From positions 1-34,989 of the IMG/VR virus record IMGVR_UViG_3300042309_000652: a stretch of 34,989 nucleotides of DNA. The stretch is one strand, 5' to 3'. A model generated the notes under the pieces. The model did not search any database and was not told the origin of the DNA. It saw nothing but the letters and a program-made list of their open reading frames with translations. The position numbers were made by a program, and so were the translations under genes. Source of the stretch: a virus. Each line of letters opens with the position of its first letter. The stretch's first letter is position 1. Positions 16,987 to 22,894 of this stretch are shown here, one piece after another.

Positions 16987-17877
16987 TCATCCGCCATGCG
17001 CGACGGATTGCAAGTCATCGCGACGCGCAGACAGCAAATCCTCAACCATCTGAATGCGCTTGCCGACCCACCGGGCTACGGGAACGCACCACGAATTACC
17101 GAGAGCCTTGTATCGCTTTGAATCTGTTGCTCCCATGATGTCGGTATAACCATCTTGAAAGCCCATCAATCGCTCAACCTCTGTTGCCGTGAACAGTCTT
17201 ACTCCATTGGCATCTTGGATGTATGTAAAGCCGTTGTCCGACATACTTTTGCCCCATCCGACTGTACCGATAGAAGTCGAAACGATTTGCTTGGAAACTT
17301 CCTGCGATCTGTATTCAAGAGCTCTATGGAATGGTTGGTCAAATAGAACCGCTGCGGGATTTCTCCAGTCTCTATGATCGTCTCCACGGTACGCAACGAG
17401 AAAGACTCGTCTTCGGGACTGGGCGACTCCGAAATAGCGAGCGTCAAGCACTCGGTAGCACCACCCATACCCACAGTCTCCCAATGCCCGGAGGAAGGCT
17501 CCAAAGTCCCGGCCTCCGTTGGAAGACAAAACTCCCACGACATTTTCCCAGACAAGCCAGCGAGGCTGCAAGCGTGCAGCAATTCCGACAAAGGCAAGGG
17601 CCAATCTGCCACGAGCATCTGCCATTCCTTCCCTTGCACCCGCGACACTAAACGCTTGGCAGGGTGTTCCACCTGCCAGAAGAGCGACAGTTCCGGGCTT
17701 GATGTCCCATTCTTCATGTTTCGTCATGTCTCCGTAGTTCTTTGTCTCTGGGTAGTGATGCTGCAACACCTCGCACGGGAACTGTTCAATCTCGCTGAAG
17801 CCGACAGGCTTCCACCCAAGCGGCTCCCACGCAACTGTCGCGGCTTCGATGCCGCTGCACACGCTCAAGTATCGCAT
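16987..17877 (-). CDS. DNA (cytosine-5) methyltransferase
   Basis: 296 aa. Motif I SVCSGIEAA (5-13), motif IV GGTPCQAFS with catalytic Cys73, motif VI ENV (111-113), motif VIII QSRRRVF (153-159) and the late motifs ending GNSWCVPVARW are all present. The protein methylates cytosine C5, most simply to protect phage DNA from host restriction. No partner endonuclease is recognised next to it. The target-recognition region between motifs VIII and IX is short (about 165-235). It overlaps the upstream 110-aa gene by 13 nt; GGAGAG lies before the ATG. A second open frame of 172 codons covers 17199-17717 in another frame of the same strand, see findings. Confidence 0.93.
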   Translation of the reverse strand: MRYLSVCSGIEAATVAWEPLGWKPVGFSEIEQFPCEVLQHHYPETKNYGDMTKHEEWDIKPGTVALLAGGTPCQAFSVAGAREGMADARGRLALAFVGIAARLQPRWLVWENVVGVLSSNGGRDFGAFLRALGDCGYGWCYRVLDARYFGVAQSRRRVFLVAYRGDDHRDWRNPAAVLFDQPFHRALEYRSQEVSKQIVSTSIGTVGWGKSMSDNGFTYIQDANGVRLFTATEVERLMGFQDGYTDIMGATDSKRYKALGNSWCVPVARWVGKRIQMVEDLLSARRDDLQSVAHGG

Positions 17878-18197
17878 CGACTCTCCAGCGATTGCAGTCT
17901 TTCCGTTCCCCGGTCAATCTGCGTCTTTACATCGTCCAGCCACGCCTGCCTGTCCTTCGGCGTTCGGTAGAAACCGTGCGCTGCCTGCTGCATCGCTAGC
18001 GCGGTCGCAGCCGTGCAACCGATGAGTTTGGAGATGCCTGTCGGTGTCGCGCTGGTGAACGTGTGCAGCGCGTCGAACGCGAGCCGCCGCGCGGCTACCG
18101 CTTCCTTGCCGATTCCGCTGTTCGGCTGGGGGAACGCGAAGCCTCGCGCTCGTAGTGCGGCCTCGACGGCGGGAATGACGATGCTTGGTGCGTACAT
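17865..18197 (-). CDS. Small helical protein, DnaA C-terminal-like (110 aa)
   Basis: 110 aa. Residues about 30-75 (AVAARRLAFDALHTFTSATPTGISKLIGCTAATALAMQQAAHGFY) resemble the helix-turn-helix of DnaA domain IV ('vaR.iA..l......s...Ig...g..hsTvl.a...'), a DNA-binding fold some phages carry alone. The match is only to spacing and hydrophobic positions. The ends are helical, with a heptad-like C terminus (WLDDVKTQIDRGTERLQSLESR). Coupled by a 1-nt TGATG overlap with the Gp157 gene and 13-nt overlap with the methyltransferase gene. It might bind the origin or regulate early transcription; other small DNA-binding proteins would look alike. Confidence 0.5.
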   Translation of the reverse strand: MYAPSIVIPAVEAALRARGFAFPQPNSGIGKEAVAARRLAFDALHTFTSATPTGISKLIGCTAATALAMQQAAHGFYRTPKDRQAWLDDVKTQIDRGTERLQSLESRCDT

Positions 18198-18712
18198 CAG
18201 GAAACCTTCAAGTAGGGTTGCTTCGGAACAAGGTACGCGAACGGCAGCGTTTTGCCGGACTCCAGCGCGGCCCGGATTGCGTCCTTATCGGGGGTGATCT
18301 TGATCTCCTCGCGCGTGAACTCCGGCGGAACATCGCCGACGATTTCCATGCTCGGCTTGCCACCCGGCATCGCAGCCGTCGCCCGCCAGCGCGGCGACTC
18401 CAATTTCTTCATGCCCTGCGCCTGCATCGCGCGAAGCACCTGCGCCTTGAACCACTCTGCTACCGCCTCGTCGCGCCTTGCTCGAGCCTTCAGCCTGTCG
18501 GCCTCGGCCTTTCGAGCCGCCGCGCGGTGTTCGATCTCCGCGACCAGCGAAAGCACATCGTCAATCGCTGCGGGCAAGTTCTCCGCTTGCTGCGCGAGGA
18601 TGTCGAAGTGCCCCTCCATCGCCTCGGTCAACTCGCCCTCGCTCTCGGTGAGCATGGCTTCGAGTTCGCGGGCCGCGTTGCTTGTCTCGTACAGTCGTTG
18701 AATTGCGCTCAT
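18197..18712 (-). CDS. Sipho_Gp157-family protein
   Basis: 171 aa. The order of elements is that of Gp157 (PF05565): an N-terminal helical half (MSAIQRLYETSNAARELEAMLTESEGELTEAMEG), a long charged coiled-coil region (VAEIEHRAAARKAEADRLKARARRDEAVAEWFKAQVLRAMQ), then a beta tail (KKLESPRWRATAAMPGGKPSMEIVGDVPPEFT). The family is linked to phage recombination genes and to resistance in streptococci by name, but its action is not settled. It is next to the ERF annealase, as often seen. The start is preceded by GAGACACC, the repeated early leader, and by three 10-bp direct repeats. Confidence 0.8.
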   Translation of the reverse strand: MSAIQRLYETSNAARELEAMLTESEGELTEAMEGHFDILAQQAENLPAAIDDVLSLVAEIEHRAAARKAEADRLKARARRDEAVAEWFKAQVLRAMQAQGMKKLESPRWRATAAMPGGKPSMEIVGDVPPEFTREEIKITPDKDAIRAALESGKTLPFAYLVPKQPYLKVS

Positions 18713-18713
18713 G

Positions 18714-18721
18714 GGTGTCTC
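18714..18721 (-). promoter_or_regulatory. Early leader octamer GAGACACC
   Basis: GAGACACC on the minus strand, 1 nt before the Gp157 ATG. It is one of six copies in 18.7-22.4 kb (others at 19751, 20116, 20363, 21365 and 22428). Four of the six end 0-1 nt before a start codon, with AGGAG overlapping or just upstream. Confidence 0.55.
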
Positions 18722-18722
18722 C

Positions 18723-18752
18723 GTGAGGATGCGTGAGGATGCGTGAGGATGC
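18723..18752. repeat. Three tandem 10-bp repeats upstream of Gp157
   Basis: GTGAGGATGC occurs three times head to tail, followed by the partial copy GTGA. On the minus strand these lie within 45 nt upstream of the Gp157 start. The 10-bp period equals one helix turn and fits protein binding on one face; replication iterons or a regulator site are possible. Replication slippage alone could also create it. Confidence 0.7.
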
Positions 18753-18808
18753 GTGACGGAAATAGCCGGGGAGGGACTTGCGTCAACCTCCCCAGCCGTT
18801 CCGGGGGT

Positions 18809-19750
18809 TCAGAATGGGATCTCGTCCTCGGCTGCTCCGACCGCAGCCGGGGCAGCCTGTTCGGATGCTACCGCAGTCCGCAGGCCGTAGAGAGTCCAAC
18901 CGTACTGCCCCTCCTGCACGAAGGCTTCCACGGTGTCGCCGCCCATCGCGTCCTGCGCGGCCTGCATAAGAGCCTGATCGAAGCAACTGCACCATTGCTC
19001 GCCATTGCCCGTGTCGAACAGGATCGGCCAGCGGTTCCCGCCCTTGGCCGTGGGCTTGCCCTGCCCGACCTTGACCACCTTCAATCCCTGTCGCCAAGTG
19101 CAGTCCTTCGCGGGTCGCGAGGCCATGACCTCGCCAAACGCGCTAGGAGCCGTTGTGGCGGGTTCCTGCGCCTTTGCCGGGGTCGGGGTCGCCTGCGGGG
19201 CCGGAATCGAACTTGGGGCATCCTGCGCGGCCTGTCGGGATGCCGGAGCGTTTCCGCTAGAGTTGCCCGCAGGTGTAGCGGAATTGCTCCGCGCTGGGGC
19301 CGGGGCTGCCTTGCGCGGCTGATACTTGGAATCGTCCTGCCGATCCATTTCGTTCTCGTCTTCGCGCGGAACGAGGAGCAAATCCCGGAGGTAGTAGCCC
19401 ATCGAAGCCGTGAGTGCGCCAGCCATCGCCTTGTCGATCGGCTGCTGGCCGCGCGGAACGGCCACCCACGCCACCTCATCGGTGACGCTCTCTCCGCTAC
19501 CCGCGTGCGTAAGGATGAACTGGCTCGTGACCAGCCCGCCGCCCTCCGGCGTTCCATCGAACTTCCAGCCCGCGCGGCGCAACGTCAACCCGGCTCCGTG
19601 CAGAACTTCGCGGCAAGCCGCAATCATCGTTTCGCTGCTGGTGTAGGCGTACCCGTAGGTGCCGCCCTTGAACTGGCTGTCCTTCCCGACGCTCGGGAGG
19701 GCGCGTTGCGCCGCCAACAGGGCGGTCGCTAGTGTCTCTGTCTTGCTCAT
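18809..19750 (-). CDS. erf: ERF-family single-strand annealing protein with OB-like C-terminal domain
   Basis: 313 aa. Residues 1-130 are an ERF annealase: FKGGTYGYAYTSSETMIAACREVLHGAGLTLRR, then a central VAWVAVPRGQQPIDKAMAGALTASMGYYLRDLLLVPR. A Pro/Ala-rich linker (145-205) follows, then a compact beta-rich domain (215-295: DCTWRQGLKVVKVGQG ... GNGEQWCSCFDQ ... GGDTVEAFVQEG-YGWTLYGL) that looks like an OB fold. The chain ends with an acidic tip AEDEIPF, as in SSB. ERF anneals complementary single strands during phage recombination. The tip could recruit host SSB-interacting proteins. Start at 19750 is preceded by GAGACACC and a hairpin covering part of the AGGAG site. Confidence 0.85.
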   Translation of the reverse strand: MSKTETLATALLAAQRALPSVGKDSQFKGGTYGYAYTSSETMIAACREVLHGAGLTLRRAGWKFDGTPEGGGLVTSQFILTHAGSGESVTDEVAWVAVPRGQQPIDKAMAGALTASMGYYLRDLLLVPREDENEMDRQDDSKYQPRKAAPAPARSNSATPAGNSSGNAPASRQAAQDAPSSIPAPQATPTPAKAQEPATTAPSAFGEVMASRPAKDCTWRQGLKVVKVGQGKPTAKGGNRWPILFDTGNGEQWCSCFDQALMQAAQDAMGGDTVEAFVQEGQYGWTLYGLRTAVASEQAAPAAVGAAEDEIPF

Positions 19751-19758
19751 GGTGTCTC
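19751..19758 (-). promoter_or_regulatory. Early leader octamer GAGACACC (ERF)
   Basis: GAGACACC on the minus strand directly abuts the ERF start codon. An AGGAG site lies farther upstream (19763-19767), 12 nt from the ATG, so the GAG of the octamer is the better-spaced anti-SD contact. Confidence 0.5.
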
Positions 19759-19764
19759 GTTTCT

Positions 19765-19782
19765 CCTGCCTAACGGGGCAGG
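19765..19782 (-). promoter_or_regulatory. Hairpin over ERF ribosome site
   Basis: CCTGCC (19765-19770) pairs perfectly with GGCAGG (19777-19782), with a 6-nt loop. On the minus-strand transcript the right arm includes the first bases of AGGAG. Formation of the stem would hide part of that site, so ERF translation may be regulated or may rely on the GAGACACC contact downstream. Confidence 0.4.
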
Positions 19783-19787
19783 CCGTC

Positions 19788-19805
19788 CCGCCCCCGTAGG
19801 GGCGG
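19788..19805 (-). terminator. Stem-loop in the ERF leader
   Basis: A 7-bp GC stem (19788-19794 with 19799-19805) has a 4-nt loop in the 69-nt gap between the 91-aa gene and ERF. No T tract follows on either strand, so it is a leader structure or weak terminator, not a strong one. Confidence 0.35.
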
Positions 19806-19819
19806 TGGGGCCAGAGCCG

Positions 19820-20095
19820 TCACGCGGCGGCGCGATCCAAAATCACCGCATTGTTGATGATGGGGAGAATCATGTGTTCGGTTGCCCTCATAATTCCTCC
19901 GCTAACCCACTTGTACGCTGGGCTAACTTCAATCACGCGCTGAAGCGATTCGATTCCCTTTGCGGAGCAGTTGCTAATCCGATAGGTGTTGTCGGGGAAC
20001 ATCGCCACGATTGCGTGCGTGTATGGCTTGCCGGTGGTCTTGCGGGTGTAAACCGTCTGCCCATTCACGATCAGGTTGATGCAGGTCTTGGTCAT
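19820..20095 (-). CDS. First leftward early gene, hypothetical (91 aa)
   Basis: 91 aa. Not recognised. It opens MTKTCINLIVNGQTVYTRKTTGKPYTHAIVAMFPDNTYRISNCSAKG, a beta-rich start, then VSPAYKWVSGGIMRATEHMILPIINN. No motif for DNA binding or catalysis is clear. It is the promoter-proximal gene of the leftward operon, with AAGGAA before its ATG and a leader containing GAGACACC (20116-20123) and an 8-bp hairpin (20125-20143). First genes of phage early operons are often host-takeover or anti-defence factors, which is only a guess here. Confidence 0.6.
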   Translation of the reverse strand: MTKTCINLIVNGQTVYTRKTTGKPYTHAIVAMFPDNTYRISNCSAKGIESLQRVIEVSPAYKWVSGGIMRATEHMILPIINNAVILDRAAA

Positions 20096-20115: not shown

Positions 20116-20123
20116 GGTGTCTC
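20116..20123 (-). promoter_or_regulatory. Early leader octamer GAGACACC (far copy)
   Basis: A minus-strand copy about 20 nt before the first leftward gene, not adjacent to its ATG. It lies immediately after the perfect hairpin at 20125-20143 in the transcript direction. This copy cannot act as the ribosome site for that gene, which has AAGGAA of its own, so the octamer may have a role beyond initiation. Confidence 0.4.
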
Positions 20124-20124
20124 T

Positions 20125-20143
20125 GTCAGCCGCCCCGGCTGAC
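20125..20143 (-). promoter_or_regulatory. Perfect leader hairpin of leftward operon
   Basis: GTCAGCCG (20125-20132) pairs with CGGCTGAC (20136-20143) with a 3-nt loop, giving an 8-bp perfect stem. It lies in the leader of the leftward early transcript. No T tract follows, so it may stabilise the RNA or be an operator; its function cannot be read. Confidence 0.45.
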
Positions 20144-20284: not shown

Positions 20285-20313
20285 TTGACATAGGCCGAAG
20301 ATGCGTCACAATT
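20285..20313 (+). promoter_or_regulatory. Sigma-70-type promoter for rightward genes
   Basis: TTGACA (20285-20290) is a perfect -35. The -10 is CACAAT at 16-bp spacing (20307-20312) or ACAATT at 17 bp (20308-20313). Transcription would start near 20320, about 50 nt before the first rightward ATG. The leader contains two small GC hairpins (near 20319-20333 and 20342-20356). The matching leftward promoter was not clear; TACAAT on the minus strand at 20274-20279 has no good -35. Confidence 0.7.
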
Positions 20314-20362
20314 ACCGCGTGGCCGGGGCGGCCACCCGAACCCGCCGGACGCGGGCGAACAG

Positions 20363-20370
20363 GAGACACC
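20363..20370 (+). promoter_or_regulatory. Early leader octamer GAGACACC (rightward gene 1)
   Basis: GAGACACC one nucleotide before the ATG at 20372, directly following AGG so that AGGAG is the ribosome site. Together with the copy at 21365 it shows that the same leader serves both strands. Confidence 0.55.
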
Positions 20371-20371
20371 G

Positions 20372-20596
20372 ATGGAAACCACTCTCGCAACCGTTGCTTT
20401 ACCCGCTCGCTTCTCTTGGATCGTCGGCGGCGATCGCCGCGTCGAAATCATCTCAATGGGCGGCGTGTCGATCGTCCAGATCGCCGCGAAGGCTTACGCC
20501 GTCGTGCGCGATGACACGCGCGAGTTTCTCGCCTGCTGCCCGAGCCTCGGCCTCGCCTCTCGAAGCCTCTCGCGGATCGTGAAGGGAGGCCGCTGA
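20372..20596 (+). CDS. Rightward early gene 1, hypothetical (74 aa)
   Basis: 74 aa, not recognised: METTLATVALPARFSWIVGGDRRVEIISMGGVSIVQIAAKAYAVV, then DDTREFLACCPSLGLASRSLSRIVKGGR. Mixed beta and helix, with a basic end and a CC pair. The start at 20372 has AGGAG at 20361-20365. A possible alternative start at 20301 lies inside the -10 region and is rejected. The next gene overlaps by TGATG. As first gene behind the rightward promoter it may be an early regulator or host-interaction protein, without direct evidence. Confidence 0.6.
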   Translation: METTLATVALPARFSWIVGGDRRVEIISMGGVSIVQIAAKAYAVVRDDTREFLACCPSLGLASRSLSRIVKGGR

Positions 20597-20940
20597 TGCG
20601 TAGCACGATCAAGGCGACGCTGGCGCAGTTGGTCGAGGGTCACACTCGCGCCAACGGCTACAGCGAGGAACAGCGCACCCAGCAGTTCGTGGATGCGGTC
20701 AGGCTCCGCGCTGGGGTCAGCCCCGCGCAACTGACCGCCGTTCACGTCTGGCAGTCGGCTCGGCTCCTGCGTGATGCGGCGTACCTCCGGCTGGAGCAAG
20801 TTCGGCGCGGTGAGATCCACGAGCGCGTCGAGGATGCGGAGGATGCATACGAGGCCGCATACGAGGCGTGGGTCGAGGCGGACGGCAACCTGTTCCGCCT
20901 GTGCGGCGAGGTCGAGGCGGAGGTGAGCATCCGTGTCTGA
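20596..20940 (+). CDS. Rightward early gene 2, helical acidic protein (114 aa)
   Basis: 114 aa, not recognised. An N-terminal half (MRSTIKATLAQLVEGHTRANGYSEEQRTQQFVDAVRLRAG) is followed by a long acidic helix (QSARLLRDAAYLRLEQVRRGEIHERVEDAEDAYEAAYEAWVEADGNLFRL). It is coupled to its neighbours by 1-nt (TGATG) and 8-nt overlaps. No catalytic or metal-binding motif is present. Coiled-coil or helical-bundle association is likely; the biological role is not known. Confidence 0.6.
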   Translation: MRSTIKATLAQLVEGHTRANGYSEEQRTQQFVDAVRLRAGVSPAQLTAVHVWQSARLLRDAAYLRLEQVRRGEIHERVEDAEDAYEAAYEAWVEADGNLFRLCGEVEAEVSIRV

Positions 20941-21364
20941 CGCAATCCGCGCATACCGTGATACCAGCCGCGCGGCCTACGCGACCGCGAGCCTGCGGCA
21001 GAATCAAAATCGCGTTTTGGATTTTGTGCGCTCGGCAGGGGCGCACGGAGCGACCTGCGACGAGGCCATCGACCGCCTCTCCATCGCGCACCAGTCCGCG
21101 TCCCCGGCGTTCACCGCGCTAGAGAAGTCCGGCCACATCCGGCGCACCGATCGCCGCAGGGAAACACGCACAGGGGCACAAGCCGCCGTCTACGTCTACA
21201 CGGAACCGGGCACTTTGTTCTCAAGTCCTCGGCAGGGGCGAGCCGATACATACAGAGCAATCGTAAGGGCCGCAATCGCGGCCCGCGCGACAGGGGATTG
21301 GATGGCGTTCGACGCGGCTCTCGGCGCGTTGCCGGAGCGTGAGCGAACGCGACTCACTAACTAG
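20933..21364 (+). CDS. Winged-helix DNA-binding protein (143 aa, GTG start)
   Basis: 143 aa starting with GTG. Residues 22-88 read as a winged helix: QNRVLDFVRSAGAHGATCDEAIDRLSIAHQSASPAFTALEKSGHIRRTDRRRETRTGAQAAVYVY. Here a first helix, a recognition helix beginning QSASPAFTALEKSG and a beta wing (IRRTDRRRETRTGAQAAVYV) are in order. This pattern occurs in phage DNA-binding proteins and MarR-like regulators. It may regulate the early promoters or bind the origin. It is the best candidate to recognise the TTCCTA array, only by proximity. Overlaps the preceding gene by 8 nt. Confidence 0.7.
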   Translation: MSDAIRAYRDTSRAAYATASLRQNQNRVLDFVRSAGAHGATCDEAIDRLSIAHQSASPAFTALEKSGHIRRTDRRRETRTGAQAAVYVYTEPGTLFSSPRQGRADTYRAIVRAAIAARATGDWMAFDAALGALPERERTRLTN

Positions 21365-21372
21365 GAGACACC
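21365..21372 (+). promoter_or_regulatory. Early leader octamer GAGACACC (rightward gene 4)
   Basis: GAGACACC directly abutting the ATG at 21373, inside TAGGAGACACCATG. The TAG of this leader is also the stop of the preceding winged-helix gene (21362-21364), so the leader uses the full gap between the two genes. Confidence 0.55.
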
Positions 21373-21573
21373 ATGCTGCACCTGAAACTCACCCGCGAAG
21401 AAGCCCGTTTCATCCTCGACCGTATGCGCCTCACCGCGATGAACGAGTCGGGACACACCGCTGCGCTCGCATCGCAGATCGTGGAAGCCATCGAACCCGA
21501 ACTCGCTGGCTCGCAAATCTTCCGAGACATCCGCGAGATGTTCGCAGACCTGTATCCTGCGGGGCGCGAATGA
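21373..21573 (+). CDS. Rightward early gene 4, small helical protein (66 aa)
   Basis: 66 aa, not recognised: MLHLKLTREEARFILDRMRLTAMNESGHTAALASQIVEAIEPELAGSQIFRDIREMFADLY. Two or three helices, no motif. A strong AGGAG ribosome site (part of the GAGACACC leader) points to good expression. It ends within an ATGA overlap with the next gene. A small regulatory or host-interaction protein is the likeliest kind. Confidence 0.6.
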   Translation: MLHLKLTREEARFILDRMRLTAMNESGHTAALASQIVEAIEPELAGSQIFRDIREMFADLYPAGRE

Positions 21574-21896
21574 CCCCGGCGCAAACCGCACTCGACATCA
21601 TGCAAACGATCCCGCGCGTAGTGCCATGCTGCAATGGGACGCAGGCCGTCCCCGCCGCCACGCTCAACGCCCTGCGCGACGCGGTGCAGAACGCGGCGGA
21701 GGAGGAGCAGATCATCTACCGCATCCTCCAGCGGGCCAAGCCCGTAGCAGCCGCGCACGTCGTGCGGATGCAGGCCGAGGCCGATGGAGCGGTGGCGTTG
21801 GCTGGCAAACCAAACGCCGCCAGCGAGGAATGGCTTTCTCAAGCGCGGGAACTGCTATACAGCATCAACGCGCGGCTAGGGGGGAACGATGACTGA
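21570..21896 (+). CDS. Rightward early gene 5, hypothetical (108 aa)
   Basis: 108 aa, not recognised. The start at 21570 is chosen because it overlaps the upstream stop as ATGA; the frame is open farther back but crosses the previous gene. Helical: MTPAQTALDIMQTIPRVV, ATLNALRDAVQNAAEEEQIIYRILQRAKPVAAAHVVRMQAEADGAVAL, then EEWLSQARELLYSINARLG. Two adjacent cysteines occur near residue 20. It overlaps the membrane-anchored gene downstream by 8 nt. No function can be assigned. Confidence 0.6.
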   Translation: MTPAQTALDIMQTIPRVVPCCNGTQAVPAATLNALRDAVQNAAEEEQIIYRILQRAKPVAAAHVVRMQAEADGAVALAGKPNAASEEWLSQARELLYSINARLGGNDD

Positions 21897-22377
21897 CGCG
21901 CTCCTGTTCATCCTCGCGCTTCTCGTAGGCGCGTACTTGTGGCATCTGCTCACGCGAAACGTGCCGCCGCAAGCGCGAATCGTCCTACCCGGCCAGCCCA
22001 TGCACCGACCCGACCACGCCCGCGAAATCCCGTGGCACACGCCGACCGTACCGATCGACGCGACGCACATCGCGTGGATCATGCACGGCGCAGGCGACCT
22101 TGGAACCGTTCACACGCTGTACCTACAGACGCTGGAATCCCTCCGGCGCGAGGTCGAGGAGTCGCGTTCACCGTGGGGGCCGATCATTACCCACAGCATC
22201 GAATTGGAATGCGATATCCGGGGCCGGGGATGCGAACCCACCTCGGAGGTGCTGTATGCAGTCGCCCGCGTGGACGAGAACGGCAACGAAACGTGGCTGT
22301 CCCGATCCGGCGCGTGGGTCGCTCGCTGGAGCGATGAAGCGGAAATCTACGAGGTGTTCCCCGGCCAAGTGCGCTAG
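21889..22377 (+). CDS. Membrane-anchored early protein (162 aa)
   Basis: 162 aa with one N-terminal membrane segment (MTDALLFILALLVGAYLWHLL, residues 1-21) and a soluble part of about 140 residues with charged, mixed structure (SLRREVEESRSPWGPIITHSIELECDIRGRGCEPTSEVLYAVARVDENGNETW). It could be an inner-membrane anchored protein facing the cytoplasm, since the segment is followed by a basic residue (TRN), or an uncleaved signal anchor. Possible roles include superinfection exclusion or host-membrane modification, based on position in the early cluster, not on sequence. It is the last of six coupled genes. Confidence 0.6.
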   Translation: MTDALLFILALLVGAYLWHLLTRNVPPQARIVLPGQPMHRPDHAREIPWHTPTVPIDATHIAWIMHGAGDLGTVHTLYLQTLESLRREVEESRSPWGPIITHSIELECDIRGRGCEPTSEVLYAVARVDENGNETWLSRSGAWVARWSDEAEIYEVFPGQVR

Positions 22378-22427
22378 CCGCTACAATCCACCCGCGCGGG
22401 TCGCCCCCCCGATACTGCCCGCGCCTA

Positions 22428-22435
22428 GGTGTCTC
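22428..22435 (-). promoter_or_regulatory. Octamer GAGACACC inside the structured region
   Basis: The sixth copy, in reverse orientation relative to the rightward genes, lies just before the first long stem. It does not precede a start codon. Its presence supports the idea that the octamer may also be a binding site and not only part of ribosome sites. Confidence 0.35.
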
Positions 22436-22559
22436 GCCTCACTCGTCTAATCGCGGGTGAGGCTTTCCAGACGGAACATCCCGGCTCCGGTCGCAACCGG
22501 AGGTCAACCATTCCGGATGCCTGCGCGACGCGAATGGTAGAGGCGGTCGCCGCCCACTC

Positions 22560-22587
22560 AACCCCCCTACGCGGGGGTTGTTTCTTT
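22560..22587 (+). terminator. Intrinsic terminator of rightward early transcript
   Basis: AACCCCC (22560-22566) pairs with GGGGGTT (22573-22579) with a 6-nt loop, followed by GTTTCTTT (22580-22587). This is a classic plus-strand rho-independent terminator. On the minus strand the hairpin is not followed by a T run. It should end the early transcript or the noncoding RNA before the last rightward gene. Confidence 0.8.
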
Positions 22588-22609
22588 GTACGCTGCCTGC
22601 GTGGCAAGG

Positions 22610-22894
22610 ATGCCCAAACCAAAACCCCCTCCCGACCTCGTTCAAGCATTGGAGCAGTCCACGCTCCTCCTGCGAGCGCAGGGCATCGCTGACATTGCAG
22701 GCGACCTAGAAGCCTTGTTCGACGCGCTCCGCTCGATGCTGGAACTGACGCGCTACGGCGACTGCCTGTTTGGCGACGAGATCCGGAACATCCTTGGTAT
22801 CCGTCACGCGCTACGGCCTCGACGCGGAAGCAACGCAGACCCCATGAAGGGAAGGCGCAAGTCTCGCCGGGTTCGCCGCCGATCGTTCAGATAG
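22610..22894 (+). CDS. Small basic-tailed protein after terminator (94 aa)
   Basis: 94 aa from the ATG at 22610. It opens MPKPKPPPDLVQALEQ, has a helical centre (LRAQGIADIAGDLEALFDALRSMLELTRYGDCLFGDEIRNILG) and ends in a very basic run (GRRKSRRVRRRSFR). The start is uncertain, as AAGG lies too close and GTG at 22601 or TTG at 22586 are alternatives. It lies after the terminator, so it would need read-through or its own promoter. It runs tail to tail (8-nt overlap) into the minus-strand virion gene. The helical centre reads like real protein, but expression is unproven. Confidence 0.5.
   Translation: MPKPKPPPDLVQALEQSTLLLRAQGIADIAGDLEALFDALRSMLELTRYGDCLFGDEIRNILGIRHALRPRRGSNADPMKGRRKSRRVRRRSFR

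Follow-up and report, generated by a model that had tools for sequence, protein, structure and literature searches.

The c4 RNA of phages P1 and P7 is a 77-nt antisense RNA that pairs in trans around a ribosome-binding site, and its complementary stretches lie in loops; the RNA differs between related phages (PMC12197685). OOP of lambda and sar of P22 are terminator-ended phage RNAs of about 70 nt that lower the expression of phage mRNAs, and VpdS of VP882 and PreS of lambda are trans-acting phage small RNAs (PMC12197685). Coordinate control of many genes at this level is exemplified by the T4 protein RegA, a translational repressor that acts at the start regions of approximately 30 phage mRNAs, both early and middle, in competition with the ribosome (PMC3014915).

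The intergenic element that we describe here (22382-22466) likely encodes, judging from its sequence and that of its relatives, an antisense RNA that acts in trans on early and recombination genes of the phage itself and represses them together. Comparison among related phages demonstrates the conserved element itself, the covariation of its stem, the placement of a complementary motif at gene starts, and the co-change of the two partners between lineages. Like c4 (Rfam: C4 antisense RNA), it would be a phage-encoded antisense RNA directed at ribosome-binding sites and variable between lineages; unlike c4, which has one target (ant) and serves lysogenic immunity, it faces several early and recombination genes that share a motif. 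OOP and sar each have a single target (cII and ant, respectively) and long complementarity, whereas here 8 nt are complementary to several separate genes. VpdS and PreS are Hfq-dependent and PreS acts on a host gene, whereas the targets identified here are the phage's own. The likeness to RegA lies in coordinate repression at start regions, with the difference that RegA is a protein and a base-pairing RNA is proposed here. The C4 covariance model of Rfam does not match the element, and a search of Rfam at gathering and permissive thresholds returned nothing credible. We class the element as a variant of the trans-acting antisense RNA and not as a member of the c4 family. In the part of the literature that we covered, we came across no account of a phage RNA acting through a motif repeated at gene starts to repress several early genes of the phage itself. 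C-rich hairpin loops are presumably also a feature of actinobacterial 6C RNA; that RNA has two C-run hairpins, unlike the single C-loop of the present element, which lies in a phage genome, and we found neither a match to the 6C Rfam model nor a second C-run hairpin.

The window, by which we mean the whole stretch of DNA analysed, corresponds to a complete virus record in IMG/VR, 34,989 bases long. Its portal match is of the Mu/D3112 type (phrog_113), a terminase gene is present, and the late genes run leftward. The early region is divergent at approximately 20.15-20.3 kb, with leftward genes at 20095, 19750 and 18712 onward and rightward genes from 20372 to 22377, and the gap under study, which extends from the stop at 22377 to the next start at GTG 22601, comes after the last gene of the rightward run. 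Because neither an integrase nor a resolvase turned up in 14 records, the window included, the life style of the phage is likely virulent; the C4 setting of an antirepressor target in a temperate phage is not what we find here, the targets that can be named being ERF and a Gp157/Gam-like gene. A C5 cytosine DNA methylase gene lies at 16987-17877 (-), with a homologue in most of the related records whose locus reaches that far.

Relatives were collected from IMG/VR phage records via the proteins that flank the gap, yielding about 20 distinct related contigs in which both flanking genes are present with a short element between them; in L083-L085 and L086 a similar element lies ahead of a homologue of the downstream gene. 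We refer to the window's lineage (window, L002-L013 and L016) as group A, to L080-L082 as group B, to L014 as group C, to L057, L060 and L062 as group D, to L063-L067 as group E, and to L083-L086 as group F. A search for DNA similarity among annotated phages found none, and tblastn with the downstream 97-aa gene gave no match. A pattern scan of genome contigs was set aside, its 16 matches being close to the chance expectation and falling in unrelated taxa.

Within the element the conserved order runs from a -10 box through a hairpin whose loop contains CGCCCCC to the linker GGTGTCTC and a terminator-like hairpin. The gap and the gene that follows it are laid out as below.

22382-22387 (+): predicted -10 box TACAAT, located 6-7 nt ahead of hairpin 1 and without variation among the 11 loci of group A that were compared
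22395-22423 (+): hairpin 1, stem CGCGGG/CCCGCG with loop TCGCCCCCCCGATACTG; the stem varies with pairing kept, the CGCCCCC of the loop is constant
22428-22435 (+): linker, or seed, GGTGTCTC, invariant in groups A and B (15 aligned sequences)
22436-22466 (+): first terminator-like hairpin, GCCTCACTCG...CGGGTGAGGC and then TTT, recognised by its fold and by its position, that of the relatives' terminator
22467-22558 (+): window-specific insert with further stems and no blastn match in any relative
22559-22587 (+): second intrinsic terminator, whose 3' end matches the end of the relatives' terminator
22601-22894 (+): downstream gene of 97 aa (MARMP...), whose GTG start aligns with the relatives' ATG

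The 5' end of the small RNA is predicted at about 22394. No -35 element is recognisable upstream of TACAAT, and as a putative free-standing transcription unit the element has a conserved -10 box and a terminator without a -35. At the -10 position groups A and B carry TACAAT or a poorer box, and groups D and E carry TAGAAT/TAGACT. Hairpin 1 in groups A and B has a stem of 6-11 bp and a loop of CGCCCCC plus 6-9 nt. Its pairing is kept despite a different stem sequence in L003, L016, L004, L009, L080 and L082; the stem occurs as CGCGGG/CCCGCG, CACGGG/CCCGTG, CGGAGC/GCTCCG, CGCGGT/ACCGCG and CGCCGC/GCGGCG, and two-sided changes are found at pairs 1, 3, 4, 5, 6 and 7, numbered from the loop.

The gap as a whole folds at -105.7 kcal/mol, compared with -92.8 +/- 4.4 for dinucleotide shuffles (z -2.9; 1 of 200 shuffles as good), which bears out the first-pass annotation in regarding it as structured, and the stems listed there, together with its TACAAT box (22382-22387) and its terminator (22559-22580), are all present. 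That annotation had proposed, without saying what it does, a noncoding RNA equipped with a -10 box and a terminator, and this idea gains support from an element that sits at the same place in relatives and keeps its stem by compensatory changes; when the relatives were checked for stems broken without compensation, the core favoured structure. The extent of about 200 nt was drawn too wide, however, as it joins the conserved core (22382-22466) to an insert seen in the window only, and because three of the listed stems lie in that insert the longer unit is unsupported. The alternative pairing CATCC/CCGGATG, which had been proposed as a switch, also falls inside the insert. The insert is 92 nt long, contains several perfect stems, and lies inside the small RNA unit. 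Ahead of it, the first terminator hairpin of the window (22436-22463) has a short T tract, TTT only, and beyond it the second terminator occupies the position of the single terminator of relatives.

Two other readings of hairpin 1 were discarded. The GTCGCCCCC start presumably resembles some type I-C CRISPR repeats, and mimicry of such a repeat was dropped because these bases form a loop and not the repeat stem. Pairing of the C-rich loop with the upstream gene's own Shine-Dalgarno sequence was rejected because that site is not G-rich in relatives.

The linker GGTGTCTC is the exact complement of GAGACACC. There are 7 copies of GGTGTCTC in the window against 0.83 expected, a number reached by 0 of 100 shuffles; one of them (13605) is inside a gene, and, relative to nearby genes, the copies other than the linker are GAGACACC on the coding strand. 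The larger group A records hold several copies of GAGACACC each, and the reversed pattern only 0-2. Across five divergent group A loci, 17 of the 31 occurrences fall within 0-4 nt of an ATG, compared with a base rate of 7.5%, which places GAGACACC first of 9,563 8-mers for start linkage (p 6.6e-12; counted by ATG anchoring, a gene-caller screen being noisy from spurious ORFs). Among 560 composition-matched permuted 8-mers it comes first with a score of 43, ahead of a runner-up at 15. All group A loci examined, and L082, have GAGACACC before starts in this way. The linker is accessible and complementary to the start regions of separately encoded mRNAs, as a seed should be. Because GAGACACC contains GGAG, common to Shine-Dalgarno sequences, part of the complementarity comes from a Shine-Dalgarno match. 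By duplex energy the five window targets rank 1, 3, 4, 10 and 12 of 41 start regions, a ranking that discriminates weakly; 26 of 500 shuffled linkers reach the summed duplex score. These targets, and the leader features of the two early mRNAs, are as follows.

20285-20312 (+): promoter of the rightward early operon, TTGACA-N16-CACAAT, with a predicted start at 20319 and equivalents in relatives
20319-20335 (+): 5'-terminal hairpin of the rightward early mRNA, GTGGCCGGGGCGGCCAC, loop GGGGC
20363-20370 (+): GAGACACC, 1 nt before ATG 20372 of a 74-aa gene, the first of the rightward early operon
21365-21372 (+): GAGACACC directly before the ATG of a 66-aa gene, 21373-21573
20125-20143 (-): 5'-terminal hairpin of the leftward early mRNA, GTCAGCCGGGGCGGCTGAC, loop GGGGC
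20116-20123 (-): GAGACACC in the leader of a 91-aa gene (ATG 20095), the first of the leftward early operon
19751-19758 (-): GAGACACC directly before the ATG of the ERF ssDNA-annealing gene, 18809-19750
18714-18721 (-): GAGACACC before the ATG of the Gp157/Gam-like gene, 18197-18712

The product of 18809-19750 is ERF by Pfam PF04404 and phrog_155, and that of 18197-18712 is Gp157/Gam-like by PF05565 and phrog_253. Directly upstream of the motif and start of the latter, at 18714-18760 (-), are at least 3 tandem copies of the 10-mer TCACGCATCC, and L013 has a comparable repeat at the corresponding position, near 1930; they could be an iteron-like site or a replication slip. The ERF leader carries GC-rich hairpins at 19770-19815 (-), just upstream of the Shine-Dalgarno sequence and similar in relatives; these might contribute attenuation or conceal the site.

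In group A both early mRNAs open with a hairpin, 6-10 nt past the -10 of a promoter of the TTGACA type, and GAGACACC or a closely related sequence comes after it. The loop of this leader hairpin is GGGGC (GGGTC once), which is complementary to GCCCC in the C-rich loop of the small RNA. The rightward hairpin (A5) has two-sided changes at 3 of 6 pairs and is 100% paired; the leftward hairpin (A4) has them at 4 of 7 pairs and is 98.9% paired, with a covariation score that 0 of 500 shuffles reach. Early mRNAs of L083, L085 and L086 likewise start with GGGC-loop hairpins, and the small RNAs of these phages have the CGCCCCC loop. Leader hairpins with a G-rich loop coincide with a C-rich loop in the small RNA, occurring in group A, L082 (imperfectly) and L083/L085/L086, and none was found in groups C, D and E, the lineages without the C-rich loop. 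Ahead of their first early genes, groups C and D have another hairpin (GCGC-AATACC or AATTCC-GCGC; L060 3174 (+), L062 3162 (+), L014 near 4385), with no obvious partner in the small RNA.

We infer that the small RNA is transcribed, pairs with its target strands inside the cell, represses them, and in this way serves the shift from early to late expression. The small RNA would be about 75-80 nt long, or longer in the window if transcription reads through to the second terminator. From 5' to 3' it would carry a hairpin whose loop is C-rich, the linker GGUGUCUC, whose 8 nt would be exposed, and an intrinsic terminator. It may be transcribed from a promoter of its own that has no -35 and might depend on activation, or it may be the stable 3' end of the rightward early transcript. 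The linker would pair in trans with GAGACACC at the ribosome-binding sites of ERF, the Gp157/Gam-like gene, the 66-aa gene and the genes that open the two divergent early operons, covering the Shine-Dalgarno region and stopping initiation so that the targets are repressed together. A second contact, between GCCCC in the small RNA loop and GGGGC in the mRNA loop, probably aids recognition in phages with the C-rich loop only. Because both RNAs have the hairpin first and the linker second, the hairpins would lie at opposite ends of an antiparallel linker duplex, and for this reason simultaneous loop-loop and linker-linker pairing is not assured. Early and recombination genes would thus be shut down as the phage moves on, and an origin within the rightward operon would create a feedback loop as well, because the first gene of that operon carries the motif.

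The RNA could instead pair with early mRNAs as a sponge, an activator or a stabiliser, which we consider unlikely. Such a role would suit the targets with leader hairpins, in which the motif lies about 20 nt upstream of the start and outside the Shine-Dalgarno sequence; in most targets, however, the motif shares bases with GGAG or abuts the start codon, and pairing there should prevent initiation.

The case for an antisense seed also draws on four other lineages with the same gene order, in which the linker differs and the pre-start motif differs accordingly. Group C combines the small RNA sequence GTGTCTCT with AGAGACAC-ATG, group D TGGTCTCC with GGAGACCA-ATG, group E TGTTCTCC with GGAGAACA-ATG, and group F CCTAGTGG with CTACTAGG, including one G-U pair. 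The table of lineage by motif is nearly block-diagonal, and the start region of the 66-aa gene orthologue reads AGGAGACACC-ATG in group A, TGGAGACCACC-ATG in D and AGGAGAACACAC-ATG in E. The motifs of groups C-F were chosen after seeing the data and have 1-3 sites per locus. An assignment test free of motif choice, based on 8-nt complementarity to the 20 nt before the terminator, ranked the true group assignment 1 of 120 permutations, and group A small RNAs match 4.5 starts per locus on group A compared with 0.15-1.3 on other groups. Covariation between seed and target is strongest in A and D and weaker in C, E and F: the rank of groups E and C taken singly is not significant, and group F scores low under strict Watson-Crick pairing. 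An out-of-sample test on L094 failed; the leader sites of that contig are near its end.

These co-changes weigh against the view that a phage protein controls early genes by recognising GAGACACC in RNA or DNA, and that the gap copy serves as an operator or binding site rather than as an antisense seed. Repetition of the motif upstream of genes in both operons is operator-like, but within operons it lies between the ribosome-binding site and the start codon, an implausible place for an operator, and the copy in the gap is oppositely oriented and set between a covarying hairpin and a terminator. A protein site would also leave unexpected both the match of C-rich and G-rich loops and the fact that four lineages changed both sides yet stayed complementary, and we regard it as quite improbable.

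As promoter box, hairpin and terminator lie directly upstream of the 97-aa gene (22601-22894) in all relatives, the element might also be taken for a 5' leader with an attenuator for that gene. However, the gene seems to own a leaderless start: a TANNNT box lies 6-7 nt upstream of it in group A and most other relatives, and this box, together with the lack of a Shine-Dalgarno sequence, makes a leaderless mRNA probable, judged from these signals, and hints at the expression habits of the host. In the window TACGCT is located exactly 6 nt upstream of GTG 22601 (22589-22600), without a Shine-Dalgarno sequence. No conserved leader peptide was seen, and an attenuator would leave the complementarity to start regions of other genes unexplained, making this explanation very improbable. 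Ordinary terminator clutter without trans function, which might be suggested by the position of the gap, where a gene cluster ends opposite convergent late genes, is hardly credible given the invariant linker, the covarying hairpin and the start-region complementarity.

Phage antisense RNAs reviewed to date mostly control one phage gene or host genes. The one proposed here would, as an RNA, repress early phage genes coordinately. Its targets can be read from the sequence, and the several natural rewritings of seed and target make its pairing rules directly testable. The approach can be carried over to uncultured phage genomes by scanning for short intergenic RNAs with a linker complementary to a motif over-represented ahead of start codons. 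More tentatively, it is possible that one small RNA resembles the 5' ends of the two early mRNAs in having a hairpin plus linker, that it recognises them at two points, loop-loop and linker-linker, that its linker also represses internal recombination genes, and that this code has been rewritten several times, lineage by lineage. If so, each lineage would silence its own early genes and not those of the next, and lineage-specific interference between co-infecting phages would be possible, as with c4 in P1 and P7.
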